The notes below the pieces were generated by a model that ran no database searches, was not told the origin of the DNA, and saw nothing but the letters and a program-made list of their open reading frames with translations. The translations under genes were made by a program, and so were the position numbers. This document shows positions 25,102 through 39,027 of a stretch of 64,000 nucleotides of DNA, in pieces; the stretch's first letter is position 1, and the number at the start of each line of letters is the position of its first letter. The stretch is taken from contig NZ_CP083582.1 in NCBI RefSeq assembly GCF_020091585.1, positions 1,736,001-1,800,000 of the forward strand, written 5' to 3'. The DNA comes from Kovacikia minuta CCNUW1. Its GTDB lineage: Bacteria; Cyanobacteriota; Cyanobacteriia; Leptolyngbyales; Leptolyngbyaceae.

Positions 25102-28100
25102 ATGCGATTGAACTGGATAAATCGACACTCTTTACTTGTTGCAGGAGCGATCGCCCTTGCCTGTTTCTTCGTTGCTAACCTTGCTGCTGCCAGTTTAGAT
25201 TTGGGTGTCAAAGCTTCACCCGTCTGGCCCCCGGCAGGAATTGCCCTGGCATCTCTCCTGCTTTATGGACGGCAAATGTGGGTCGGAATTGGGTTAGGGA
25301 TGCTGTTGGTTTCGGTTTCAATGGGCGTCTCGTGGACAGTGGCGGCGGTGGCGGCGGCGGGCAGCACCCTGGGGGCGATCGCAGGCAACGAACTACTCGA
25401 ATGGTTCAACTTTCGCAAATCCCTGAGTAGCTTGCGGGATGTTTTAGGCTTTGTTGCCCTGGCAGTGCTCCTTTCACCGATCGTTAATGCAACCATTAAT
25501 AGCTTCAATGCTTGCTTGGCAGGTTTAGAGGACTGGAGTGCATTTGGGGTTCACTGGGGCACGATCTGGCTGGGAGACAGTATCGGGATTCTGGTGGTCG
25601 CGCCGCTCATGCTGACCTGGCTGGGAAAACCCCTACCGCCGAATCTGTCCCTCCAATGGTTCTGGCAGCAATGGCAGCAGAAATCAAATTTTCGCCAGAA
25701 AGTAATAGAAATTCTGGCCTGGATGGTTTTACTGGTGGGTGTGAGCTGGATTGTTTTTCAATCCCCAACTCAGACAGAAATCGCCCACTTTCCCCTGGAA
25801 TATTTACCCTTTCCTTTAATTGTTTGGGCAGCATTACGGCTGGGGCAGCGGGGAACCGTCCTGGGTAGTCTGGTGGTGTCTGCGATCGCGATCGCAGGCG
25901 TGTTGCGGCATGGAGGTCCCTTTCTGGCAAAGACAGAGGGAGACGTGTGGCAGGCAATCTTTCTGCTCCAAGCCTTTGTGGGCATCATTACAATGACTGC
26001 CCTGGTCTTAGCCGCAGCAGTAGCAGAGCGGCAACAGGCCGTCGAGCATTTGTTTAAGAGCAAAGAGCATTTCCGCAGCATGTTTGAAGGAGCCGGGATC
26101 GGAATTGGGCTTACCGATCTGCACGGGCAGATTGTGGAAAGCAACCCGGTGTTGCAACGAATGTTAGATTACAGCCGCGAAGAATTGAGTGGCAAAACCT
26201 TTGCCGAATTCACCTACACCGACGACCTTGCCGCTGATGCGAAGTGGTTACCAGAAATGGTTTCCGGGCAACGCACCCTCCACCAACTGGAAAAGCGCTA
26301 CATCGGTAAGGACGGTCACATCGTTTGGGTTCGTCAAACCAATTCCCTGATCCGGGATGAGGCAGGCGAACCCAAATTTATGGTTGGCATGGTAGAAGAC
26401 ATTACCGAATTGAGACGGGCGGAAGAAAACATTCAGCTTTATGCCAATATCGTCAGAACCATGCAAATGGGTCTAATTGTTTGGCAATTGGAAGACCTGA
26501 ATAACCTGAACAGTTTCCGGTTAATGGACATTAACCCAGCCGCCCGACAGATTTTAAAGATGACTGCCCATGCCCATGATCTGGTTGGGAAAAGGATGGC
26601 AGAGGTTTTTCCAAATTTGATCGATACGGCATTTCCTGGTGTTTATGCCACGGTGATTCGTTCTGGTAAAGTTCGAGATTTGGGAGAAGTTCGCTACGGA
26701 GATATCTACTTGCCCGAAGGTGTCTATTCCACCAAAGCTTTTCCGTTACCGAATCAATGCGTCGGGTTGGTGTTTGAGGATATTACCGATCGCAAACAGG
26801 CAGAAGAAGCATTGCAGCAAAGTGAAGCCCGCTTCCGAGTGGTTGCCGAAACTGCTGCCTGTGCCTTTATGCTCTACCAGGGGAGCCGATTACGCTACAT
26901 CAACCCTGCCGCACAGACGATTACCGGATATTCTCAAGAAGAACTCCTGTCGATGGACTTCTTGGATCTGGCTCATCCTGAATTTCGCGATCTGGTGCAG
27001 AAAAGGGGACTTGAGCGGCAACAGGGGCTAGAGGTTCCGAATCGCTATGAGATCAAGATTTTGACGAAATCGGGACAGGAACGATGGGTTGATTTGACGG
27101 CTGGGATGGCTGTGTTTGAAGGAAAACCCGCAGGTTTGGCAACCGCCTACGATATTACCGATCGCAAACGGGCAGAGGCAAAACTGCTGATGTCAGCCAA
27201 TCGGGAACGGTTACTGACGGAAATTGCCTCTCGAATTCGGAGTTCTCTGAACCTGGAAGAAATTTTGCAGACGACTGTCCAGGAAATCCGGAAATATTTG
27301 CAGGTCGATCGGGTTTTTATCAGTTACTTTGATGCGGCAGGGGGGTGTCTGGCGATCGCCGAATCCGTTGCTGAACCCTGGCCCTCCATTTTGGGTTGGG
27401 AACCAGAAAACGACAAAATTCAGGAAATTAAATCCACCTTCCAACCCGGTTGTGCTCAACGTGGTGAATGACACCGAGCAAATCGAAAAAACACCCCTGA
27501 TGCGAGAATGCAGCCAGCGTTCCCTGTTCCGGGCAGGCATGGGGATTGGGCTACGGTTAAATGGGGAAATGTTCGGTGTCCTGATTGCTCAACAATGCTG
27601 CGGTCCCCGTCAGTGGGAACCCTTTGAGATTGAACTCATGGAACAACTGGCAACCCAGGTCGAAATTGCAATCCAGCAAGGACAACTGTATCGTCAGGTG
27701 CAAACCTTCGCCGCCAACCTGGAGTGCCAGGTCGAAGAGCGAACTGCGGAACTTCACGCAGCGGATGCAAGAACTTCAAAACCTGAATCAGGTGAAAGAC
27801 CTGCTTCTCCATGCCGTCTCCCACGACCTGCGGACTCCTATCCAGGGGATGCTAATGGTGTTTAACCGTCTGCGATCGAAGTGCAAGGACTGTGAAACGG
27901 TGACGATTTCACGCTCTATGCTAGACCTGATGATCCAGAGTAGCGACCAGCAGCTTTGTTTGCTCAACTCCCTGAGGGAGAACCAGGTCAGCAACGAGCC
28001 TGAAGTGCGCCTGGTGCCCCAACCTATCACTCTCAATCATGTTCTGCACACCACCCTGGAATCCCTACACTCCCTGCTGCACGACAACCAGGCAACCCTG

Positions 28101-28628
28101 ACCAACCGAATCCCAGACGAACTTCCCCTCGTCAAAGCAGACCCCATTCAACTCCAACGGGTGCTGGAAAACCTGCTAATCAACGCCCTCAAACATAACT
28201 CCCCCAATCGCACCCTCACCCTCACCGCCTCAGTTCTCCTCCCAGAAACCCTCCACACCCCACACCCCACACCCCACACCCCACACCTCACACCCCACAC
28301 CCCACACCCCACACCCCACACCCCACACCCCACACCCCACACCCCACACCCCACACCCCACACCCCACACCCCCTCTCCCCCCTGCTCTACTGCGCCATC
28401 ACAGACAATGGCAATGGCATGAATCAGGAAAAGTGCGATCGCCTGTTCAAACCCTACGTCCGCAGCCTCGACAATCCCCATTGCACCGGAATTGGGCTGG
28501 GGTTACACCGCTGTCGGCAAATCATTACCGCCCATGGTGGGCAAATTGGCGTCACCAGCGAACCGGGAGTAGGAACAACGATCTGGTTTACCCTGCCCTT
28601 AGTGGAGAAAGGATTAAGCGCTTCTTAG
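25102..28628 (+). pseudogene. MASE1-PAS-GAF sensor histidine kinase with two frameshifts
   Basis: One gene of about 1175 codons spread over three frames. Order: MASE1 membrane sensor (about 5-300, SPVWPPAGIALASLLL), three PAS domains (about 315-700), a GAF domain, then HisKA with H box LLHAVSHDLRTPIQG, N box LENLLINALKHN, and G boxes DNGNGM and GIGLGL. The first break is near 27438-27440 (one extra T; repaired reading KSTSNPVVLNVV), the second near 27755 (one extra base; repaired reading TAELQQRMQELQNL). A CACACCC STRR encoding HTPHPTP repeats sits inside the ATPase domain (28245-28372) in frame. If the shifts are sequencing errors the gene may be functional. The ligand is unknown. Confidence 0.85.
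28245..28372 (+). repeat. CACACCC heptamer array inside a coding region
   Basis: About 17 copies of the 7-bp unit lie between the N box and G1 box of the histidine kinase. Three units make 21 bases, so the translation repeats HTPHPTP. The same unit, on the other strand, forms the intergenic array at 965-1040. Confidence 0.9.
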
Positions 28629-30937: not shown

Positions 30938-31208
30938 GATCCTCCCTAGCCCCCCTTAGAAAGGGGAGAATACCCTCTGCTTCCCCCTTTCTAAGCTACC
31001 GTGTACACACAAGTCGGAAATCTGTGAACACAAGTCCTGAAACCCTTGCTCTGCCTCAACTTTGGAAATTGGCTGAAATCTCAATAATCTCGGCTTATTG
31101 AGAACCGGCAACGAGAAATCAAGGTTGTGGAGGATCAGGTTTTCGGAAAACGAATCAGCGATCGACTTGTGTGTACACCGTAGCCTTTCTAAGGGGGCTA
31201 GGGGGATC
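30938..31208. repeat. Dispersed palindromic repeat split by an inserted element
   Basis: The outer arms, GATCCTCCCTAGCCCCCCTT (from 30938) and its near complement ending GGGGCTAGGGGGATC (31208), form one palindrome of about 73 bp once the inner element is removed. The same class occurs at 38952-39027 without an insert. Confidence 0.85.
30996..31183. mobile_element. 188-bp MITE-like element with terminal inverted repeats
   Basis: The ends match over 21 bases with one mismatch; the perfect inner part is GTGTACACACAAGTCG. It is flanked by a 10-base direct repeat CCTTTCTAAG (30986-30995 and 31184-31193), a target-site duplication created within the palindrome. The interior has no ORF, so it must be moved by a transposase encoded elsewhere. 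Confidence 0.85.
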
Positions 31209-32809: not shown

Positions 32810-32829
32810 CCGAAGACCAAGCTTGTCAA

Positions 32830-33119
32830 TTACTACCTCTGAGCGAAGGCGAGCTACCTCTGAGCGAAGGCGAGCTATCTCTGAGCGAAGGCGAGCCATA
32901 TCCGAACGAAGTCCAGCTATCCCTGAACGAAGTCGAGCTATCCCTGAACGAAGTCGAGCTACCTCTGAACTAGGTCGAGCTACCTCTGAACTAGGTCGAG
33001 CTACCTCTGAACTAGGTCGAGCTGTTTCTGAACGAAGTCAAGCTATCTCTGAGCTAAGTCCAGCTACCTCTAAACGAAGTCGAGTCACCTTTGAGCTGAG
33101 CTGGGCAAGTTCAGAGATA
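32830..33119. repeat. 21-bp minisatellite, about 13-14 copies
   Basis: Imperfect tandem units of the form GAGCTACCTCTGAACGAAGTC fill the gap between the amidohydrolase and the gene at 33122. Variants alternate GAACGAA, GAACTAG and GAGCGAA. Because 21 is a multiple of three, open frames run through it on both strands; the plus-strand frame (32823-33260) is not considered a gene. Confidence 0.9.
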
Positions 33120-33121
33120 GG

Positions 33122-33622
33122 TCAACCTGCTGACGAGATAGCTGGAGTGGATACTTTCTCCGCTTTAGGTCGTCGGTTGCCCATTGCTTTAAACCGTTCT
33201 CCGAGTTGGTCTGCCACGCTCTTAAGACCGGGGGCATGTTTTGCGGCTGTTTTCACATAGTCATAGACGAGCAGACTGCTTGCCATAGATTCGCCTCCGA
33301 CTGCCAGTAACGTATCATCCACTTTTTCCGTTAATTGCTCTAACAGGCTAAGAACTTCTGTAAGGGCGATCGTCAACTGGTAATCGCGATTAAATTCAGC
33401 AATGTTAAAACTGGCGGGGACGACCTCGGAATTGTTTTGAGTCACACTCAAGCTGTTGCTGACAAAGGCGATACTCTTATCACCCATCTTGATCCGTTTG
33501 CGCCGCTCATCGGGCGTGAGGCTGATTAAGAACGGCATGTTGTCGTGGAGCGAGGCGATCGCGGCTTTGATTTCCTGCAATTTTTCCGGTGTAATCGTAG
33601 CGCTAATGTTTTCGTAGGGCAT
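33122..33622 (-). CDS. Hypothetical 166-residue helical protein
   Basis: AGGAGA lies 7 bases before the ATG at 33622. The protein is largely helical and opens MPYENISATITPEKLQEIKA; it has LTPDERRKRIKMGDKSIAFV and an Ala-rich C-terminus. I recognise the type from bacterial hypothetical proteins but no named domain. Its TGA stop is followed in the same frame by seven-residue repeats encoded by the minisatellite, interrupted by a second TGA; see findings. Confidence 0.7.
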   Translation of the reverse strand: MPYENISATITPEKLQEIKAAIASLHDNMPFLISLTPDERRKRIKMGDKSIAFVSNSLSVTQNNSEVVPASFNIAEFNRDYQLTIALTEVLSLLEQLTEKVDDTLLAVGGESMASSLLVYDYVKTAAKHAPGLKSVADQLGERFKAMGNRRPKAEKVSTPAISSAG

Positions 33623-38951: not shown

Positions 38952-39027
38952 GATCCCCCTAAGTCCCCCTTAATCAGGGGGACTTTAAGCCTGTTTCCCC
39001 CCTTTTTAAGGGAGGTTAGGGGGGATC
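38952..39027. repeat. Dispersed palindromic repeat (intact copy)
   Basis: Arms GATCCCCCTAAGTCCCCCTT and the near complement ending GGTTAGGGGGGATC. It belongs to the same class as the interrupted copy at 30938-31208. Confidence 0.8.

Follow-up and report, generated by a model that had tools for sequence, protein, structure and literature searches.

A MITE of Kovacikia minuta and a Tn5-related insertion sequence with a split transposase frame, located mostly at the tips of dispersed palindromes

Introduction

A short element without genes interrupts a dispersed palindromic repeat in the genome of the cyanobacterium Kovacikia minuta CCNUW1, within the stretch of 64,000 bp that we analysed (C1:1736001-1800000 of a three-contig, 8.56-Mb genome; hereafter the window). 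The locus raises the question of whether the palindrome is an accidental landing place or a target that is sought out, and, as the element encodes nothing, of which enzyme could have placed it there.

An interrupted repeat and its insert

The interval 30938-31208, pointed out by a first-pass annotation made from the sequence alone, corresponds to the whole interrupted repeat and not to the MITE alone. The element proper has the 188 bp and the inverted ends that had been described and occupies positions 30996-31183 (+). Its 21-bp terminal inverted repeats (left, 30996-31016, +; right, 31163-31183, -) match at 20 of 21 positions, with a single mismatch, and the exact 10-bp duplication that had been claimed, CCTTTCTAAG, is found at 30986-30995 and 31184-31193 (both +). 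As the annotation had stated, the element lacks an ORF (none of at least 80 aa overlaps 30996-31183). A subterminal box resembling a second copy of the end lies as a direct repeat 21 bp inside the left end (31022-31045, +) and is kept across related MITEs. Outside the duplications remain the left part of the dispersed palindromic repeat (GATCCTCCC..., 30938-30985, +; HMM match 30938-30995) and its right part (...GGATC, 31194-31208, +). The tip-motif search also located the second, unoccupied tip of this same repeat, CCCCCTTAGAAAGGGGA, at 30951-30967 (+; C1:1766951-1766967), with one mismatch to the tip motif.

Removing the MITE and one duplicate by script restores a repeat of 73 bp with GATC at both termini, which is predicted to fold into one long hairpin (-28.8 kcal/mol, DNA parameters). 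The first-pass annotation had regarded this restored sequence as a clean palindrome of the same class as 38952-39027 (+), an empty palindromic repeat that we recognised by HMM, tip-motif search and fold, with GATC ends and two C-run/G-run tips (38965-38981 and 38998-39014). The palindrome and the shared class stand, since an HMM seeded from 38952-39027 matched 30938-30995 at E 8.9e-5 after one iteration, but the sequences have diverged and the empty repeat is predicted to form two inner hairpins (-21.3 kcal/mol, DNA parameters) in place of the single long one. The two repeats are evidently diverged members of one class.

Two other features of the window may be mentioned here. A 145-aa ORF of degenerate SERRRA/SELGRAT-like repeats (32823-33260, +) might be no gene at all but a tandem repeat that happens to translate, and another ORF (27585-28628, +) reads like a histidine kinase with a long TPHTPHP repeat run inside.

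The element in the genome

In the 64-kb window alone, with three mismatches allowed, the end motif had three matches, a number reached by 5 of 100 shuffles, and it would not stand out there. Genome-wide, each of the two strands has 72 occurrences of the end core GTGTACACACAAGTCG when one mismatch is allowed (reversed control, 0 and 0), which is not due to chance. These 144 sequences are the ends of 58 MITEs of 188 bp (the MITE centre also occurs 58 times) and of 14 insertion sequences (ISs) of 1,484 bp, two of which measure 1,483 bp. The copies hardly differ: 56 of the 58 MITEs are identical and the other two are one base off, while 10 of the 14 IS copies are identical to one another. Exact duplications of 9-12 bp flank 70 of the 72 insertions (11 bp in 37, 10 bp in 29, 12 bp in three and 9 bp in one). 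With reverse complements counted as one, these 70 duplications comprise 31 sequences, and the outer flanks of all 72 insertions are distinct. Near-identical copies with differing flanks and duplications point to a recent burst of independent insertions. Both searches recommended along with the annotation, one for further copies with other duplications and one for a transposase gene between the same ends, were thus successful, and its idea of a non-autonomous element with a repeat as its target agrees with the 58 MITE copies, which lie mostly in the same kind of repeat.

The two insertions without an exact duplication are IS copies. Two IS copies (C2:578689 and C2:696427) have a different palindrome tip on either side, which suggests that one copy recombined with another or that a single base changed in one of the duplicates. 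In three close tandem pairs both tips of one repeat are occupied, by two MITEs (C1:5605023/5605255 and C1:6988278/6988506) or by a MITE and an IS (C1:6887750/6887982). The DDE_Tnp_1 family has 94 matches genome-wide, several groups of which share equal scores and lengths and look near-identical; the K. minuta genome is, judging by such matches, rich in transposons.

The element has the features expected of a MITE, being short and devoid of a transposase gene, with a target duplication and inverted ends in common with a resident IS. An origin by internal deletion of that IS, which MITE status does not require, was considered and rejected, as the sequence in common is limited to the ends (19-22 bp, the only significant blastn matches). 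Related MITEs of 187-188 bp, or of 301 bp with an insert, were found in five other genomes belonging to five families, with 82 and 74% identity over 188 bp in two of them (G097 and G099) and matches over 131 bp in G015 and G063 and over 173 bp in G067. The existence of these relatives, and the restriction of the similarity with the IS to the ends, indicate that the MITE is an independent and older element which employs these ends too. Some match to it was present in 21 of 144 relatives, mostly at the ends only. In other MITEs (L190 and L247) the end is followed immediately by what lies beyond the inner box in the 188-bp MITE, which would fit an extra end acquired by the 188-bp family on the outer side of an ancestral one. 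The plasmid and phage collections (from which records of this genome may be absent) had nothing that matched the MITE, the viral contigs searched held neither a relative of the transposase nor an exact end, and the Rfam search gave nothing significant (best E 0.83). No empty orthologous site was found, there being no other genome of the genus (g1) among the matches listed, which covered part of the 144 genomes.

A resident insertion sequence with the same ends

The 1,484-bp IS is the only other kind of element found in the genome with the ends of the MITE. It was not among the 30 best PF01609 matches, a set of candidates that was rejected because at none of the 30 loci did such ends enclose an IS, although one of them contained two MITEs; the true partner lay lower in the list. 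Its transposase matches the NCBIfam model NF033590 (IS4 family) with 385.5 bits (cut-off 160) and the Tn5 transposase structures with E 1.1e-37, and when the two frames in which it is written are fused the homology to Tn5 extends across residues 13-439. The residues D71, D175, Y309, R312, E316 and K323 are invariant in five aligned sequences and aligned with the Tn5 regions, and we take their catalytic role to be the one that they have in Tn5. They agree with the D(60-110)D(100-150)E spacing and the Y(2)R(3)E(6)K signature given for the IS4 family in the available text of PMC2266710. The seven conserved positions of the IS50-subgroup end consensus, CW------Y---CA-A--W- (Table 1 of the same paper), are all found in CTACCGTGTACACACAAGTCG and in both IS ends, and the size lies within the 1,350-1,550 bp of that subgroup.

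Other traits divide. The target duplication of about one helix turn, typical of the IS4 family, is seen here (9-12 bp in 70 of 72), but the 8-9 bp typical of the IS50 subgroup are not (66 of the 70 measure 10-11 bp, three 12 bp and one 9 bp), nor is the single-ORF transposase without frameshift that characterises the IS4 family, as all 14 copies have a -1 split. For the last two reasons we have not filed the IS as a regular member of the IS50 subgroup. In the transposase tree it falls among cyanobacterial ISs; the IS of another genome of the same family (G034) reads like that of an Alkalinema record (L197, L267). The partner IS is, from these alignments, homologous to Tn5-type elements, and it probably works as a cut-and-paste element of the same type.

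Choice of target

In the whole genome the exact tip motif, CCYCCTTNNNAAGGRGG, has 70 occurrences, of which 41 are filled and 29 empty (reversed control for the empty ones, 1). Seen from the insertions, 41 of the 70 with exact duplications are centred on an exact tip and 56 on a tip with at most one mismatch, while 14 are not so centred (with two mismatches the motif came too near its control, 201 versus 194, and only the listed places were used). Judged by eye, 12 of the 72 insertions lie outside dispersed palindromes, and most copies are therefore within them, as in the ISs known to target REP sequences.

The ends, with at most one mismatch, are present in 37 of 386 genomes from the phylum, K. 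minuta included. We have compiled 33 insertion sites outside K. minuta with exact duplications of at least 9 bp. They comprise 24 of 66 end pairs, including the low-complexity L253 and two Bacteroidota sites with weakly matching ends, L290 and L318 (the other 42 pairs, a part of which are false, lacked such a duplication), and 9 of the 10 found among 21 further loci (L316 repeats L315, and 11 gave none). A dyad of at least 7 of 10 was present at 17 of the 33 sites versus 2.4% of random windows from the same loci, and a dyad of at least 8 at 12 of them versus 0.5%; arms with at least two C and at least two G were found at 23, versus 2.6% of random windows. The remaining 16 sites have a dyad below 7. 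The target palindromes differ in sequence between hosts, for example a pyrimidine-arm palindrome around CCCCTTGTGGG in Bradyrhizobium (L287) and CCCGGTGGG in Nostoc (L258), which argues for the recognition of symmetry over that of a fixed sequence. At six loci (L262, L263, L198, L270, L272 and L277) the direct duplication is missing and near-perfect inverted repeats border the element on its two sides; a palindromic target might have become symmetric once the element was in place, perhaps through template switching in the large hairpin.

The targeting of palindromes of different sequence in other genomes would also be expected if the transposase recognised not symmetric duplex DNA but an extruded cruciform or hairpin, and the two repeats of the window do fold strongly as single strands. 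We consider this rather unlikely, although it is the alternative that fares best and our counts agree with structure and duplex symmetry alike; the duplications of 10-11 bp fit the joining across one helical turn that is described for IS4 in the available text of PMC2266710.

Rather less likely still is that palindromes are not recognised at all, the transposase reading short C/G runs at the cut, or insertion being random with only intergenic survivors, and palindromes simply being rich in such sites. The 12 sites outside palindromes speak in this sense, as they have C at -4, -3 and -2 outside the duplication (79, 92 and 88% of 24 half-sites) and little else in common. On contig 2, which was read fully (1.196 Mb after removal of 19 elements, 17 with exact duplications), at least two C and at least two G occupy the three-base arms at 16 of the 17 insertions, versus 2.1% of random positions, and 11 of the 17 are at one of its 575 CCC-N12/13-GGG places. 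However, among these 575 places, all with the same arms, occupancy rises with dyad symmetry, from 3/506 (dyad up to 6) through 3/56 (dyad 7) to 5/13 (dyad 8), or 8/69 for dyad 7-8 versus 3/506 (p 3.6e-6).

The same dependence can be examined within a single repeat, whose two tips amount to a natural experiment on the selection of symmetry by a DDE transposase. Throughout the genome the symmetric tip CCCCCTTAAAAAGGGGG is filled 28 times and empty 15 times, whereas of its sister CCCCCTTAATCAGGGGG, with one broken dyad pair, 4 occurrences are filled and 29 empty (Fisher p 4.7e-6), core sequence and symmetry changing together between the two. In the 33 repeats with a sister tip, only the partner is filled in 20, only the sister in two, both in two and neither in nine (four of these nine with an exact partner tip and five without). 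The 20 versus 2 (sign test, p about 1e-4, by hand) come from tips with the same C/G arms and in the same repeat, so that place and selection are largely controlled for. Palindrome targeting is, by all these counts, a habit of the MITE, the IS and many of their relatives, and not an accident of the locus at 30938-31208.

A transposase gene in two frames

The transposase begins (MDNPILIHA...FGDPRLVKRG, the first ~26 codons) in one frame and continues in the -1 frame; the two meet at AAAAGGGGG in all 14 copies, and the run at this junction, A4G5, is kept in 14/14. The junction is inside the DNA-binding domain: the fused reading scores 34.2 bits with Pfam Tnp_DNA_bind versus 15.4 for the -1 frame alone (cut-off 24), and its alignment with the Tn5 transposase has no gap at that point. 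With the Tn5 inhibitor structure, the match begins at residue 51.

A possible explanation is decay, the 14 IS copies being dead and ISs and MITEs having been moved by a transposase since lost. The presence of the split in every copy of the genome would fit, and yet we regard this as quite improbable, because the same junction and run recur elsewhere. With AAA AGG GGG in the 0 frame, the same split is found at 32 cyanobacterial loci (33 minus the spurious L295), from a smaller number of genomes (L262/L263, L276/L294 and L279/L280/L328 are same-genome groups). It is also found, at A4-5 G5-6, at 16 proteobacterial loci, 15 of them named alphaproteobacterial and one, L310, only Proteobacteria. Of 65 loci tested for the split, 21 gave no answer and five lacked the start motif; the proteobacterial count comes from a separate analysis. 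In two further lineages a run of A alone, A8 in L283 (Propionivibrio) and A7 in L285 (Opitutaceae), marks a -1 junction at the same protein position. There are exceptions: the cyanobacterial L301 and L307 have the motif and yet continue in the same frame, in L284 there is just AAAAAGGG, and L312 and L323 have no -1 split. Also at odds with decay, substitutions among the 33 cyanobacterial sequences fall preferentially on third codon positions in both parts, 6261 of 12392 differences in the first (0 frame) and 4917 of 9444 in the second (-1 frame), as pairwise cases that are not independent, and both parts thus look to be under selection at the protein level. We infer from these comparisons that the split reflects recoding rather than decay.

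Five more distant IS50-like loci (L208, L210, L211, L212 and L215) have the start motif in the same ORF as the rest; they belong to 15 loci with other transposase matches, the other ten of which were too short or had no match to the motif. In an unrooted tree of 43 rows, with 16 cyanobacterial and 12 proteobacterial frame-split sequences, a branch supported by 100/100 parts seven distant in-frame rows from 36 that comprise all the frame-split ones together with four in-frame Bacteroidota, L283, L285 and two Bacteroidota without a recognised split; a single origin of the split is not settled by it.

Being written in two frames, the gene can give the full enzyme only by ribosomal frameshifting or by slippage of the RNA polymerase on the run. 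In 24 sequences no conserved RNA structure was predicted downstream of the junction, an argument against a ribosomal frameshift stimulated by structure. Together with the replacement of the A/G run by runs of A in two lineages, this somewhat favours polymerase slippage over structure-driven frameshifting; a ribosomal slip on the GGG that closes the run would be equally consistent.

A model of transposition

The reading that palindrome and insert (260 bp) are a single repeat, moved or copied as a unit, which the annotation itself had raised and to which 58 copies mostly in the same kind of repeat might lend some colour, is practically excluded by the 72 distinct outer flanks (in themselves sufficient to refute it), 31 duplication sequences among 70 insertions, duplications of 9 to 12 bp, 29 exact and 29 sister tips that are empty, and 12 insertions outside the repeat. 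Common ends, duplications of 9-12 bp, near-identical copies and a location mostly at palindrome tips are all seen in the sequence itself. What we consider very probable is that the MITE is moved in trans by the transposase of the IS, produced from a split gene; as to mobilisation in trans, we infer it from the shared ends and shared targets.

The full transposase would be produced by occasional slippage at the junction run (A4-7 G5-6), would bind the ends common to IS and MITE and would excise either element. A dimer holding both ends would capture a target of two-fold symmetry, in most cases a core of 9-12 bp between CCC/GGG (or pyrimidine/purine) arms, as in the two-tip repeats of the host, and the ends would be joined across approximately one helical turn. 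Translation from an internal ATG just after the junction would give a protein that lacks the first part of the DNA-binding domain and resembles the Tn5 inhibitor, and we hypothesise by analogy that it may act in the same manner. A balance between transposase and inhibitor is known in Tn5.

Extending this to the relatives, a separate, multi-phylum group of Tn5-related elements might exist in which the transposase is obtained only by slippage at an A/G (or A) run within the DNA-binding domain and the unslipped internal product is the inhibitor. Such elements would read two-fold symmetry and not a fixed sequence, with host palindromes as landing pads, and MITEs with the same ends would exploit the group until most of the best pads are filled. 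We put forward this wider picture tentatively, and lean slightly against it as a whole.

Relation to known systems

MITEs have been described in cyanobacteria, such as Nezha (cited in PMC3733652) and 147 type II MITEs in Anabaena sp. 90 (PMC3542288), and they resemble the element studied here in being small and gene-less with inverted ends. For those of Anabaena sp. 90 a similarity of the ends to a resident IS is not reported in the available text, whereas here the partner IS is in the same genome. G/C-rich triplex motifs are numerous in cyanobacteria according to the accessible part of PMC4666352.

Frameshifted transposases are named for the families IS1, IS3, IS5 and IS630 in the part of a 2016 review available to us, where IS4 is not in the list (PMC5009743). 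In those families, as here, a DNA-binding part encoded upstream is linked to the catalytic part through a change of frame; by contrast, the junction described here lies inside the Tnp_DNA_bind domain, at A4-7 G5-6. The IS4 family is even defined by 'absence of frameshift' and 'single orf encoded transposases' in the text seen of PMC2266710. In the portions of the papers covered by our literature search, including PMC3281130, PMC4066793, PMC1088944 and PMC2246112, we encountered no mention of a frameshift conserved among IS4-family transposases. DDE_Tnp_1 clusters with -1 frame transitions are listed in PMC3711429, as far as its text was accessible, and could include this IS group, so that it may have been noticed before. 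A conserved split in relatives of Tn5 breaks a published hallmark of the IS4 family and suggests a new route to the balance between transposase and inhibitor.

IS231A, another IS4-family element, has GGG-N5-CCC as its target. It is similar in its site preference and in its long and variable duplications (10-12 bp for its subgroup in the excerpts of PMC2266710), and different in its subgroup and ends; besides, the arms here are CCC...GGG and outside the duplication.

Insertion of ISs into REP palindromes is known for ISRm22 (IS4 family), ISPpu9, ISPpu10, ISPsy8 and others, as stated in the accessible part of Tobes and Pareja (2006; PMC1525189). Both cases have dispersed extragenic palindromes as insertion sites, and ISRm22 is a precedent within the IS4 family, although the available text of PMC2266710 places it in subgroup IS4Sa and not in the IS50 group. 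What differs here is that a MITE takes part, that 41 of 70 exact tips are filled by the MITE and the IS between them and that the sequence of the palindrome varies with the host. Such filling implies that extragenic palindromes can be a transposon sink, possibly sparing genes.

The closest comparison is with IS50/Tn5, with which the IS shares the homology of the transposase, the DDE and Y(2)R(3)E(6)K residues, the seven end positions and the size. It departs from them in its duplications (8-9 bp there, mostly 10-11 bp here), in the two frames of its transposase as opposed to one ORF, and in its strong targeting of palindromes.
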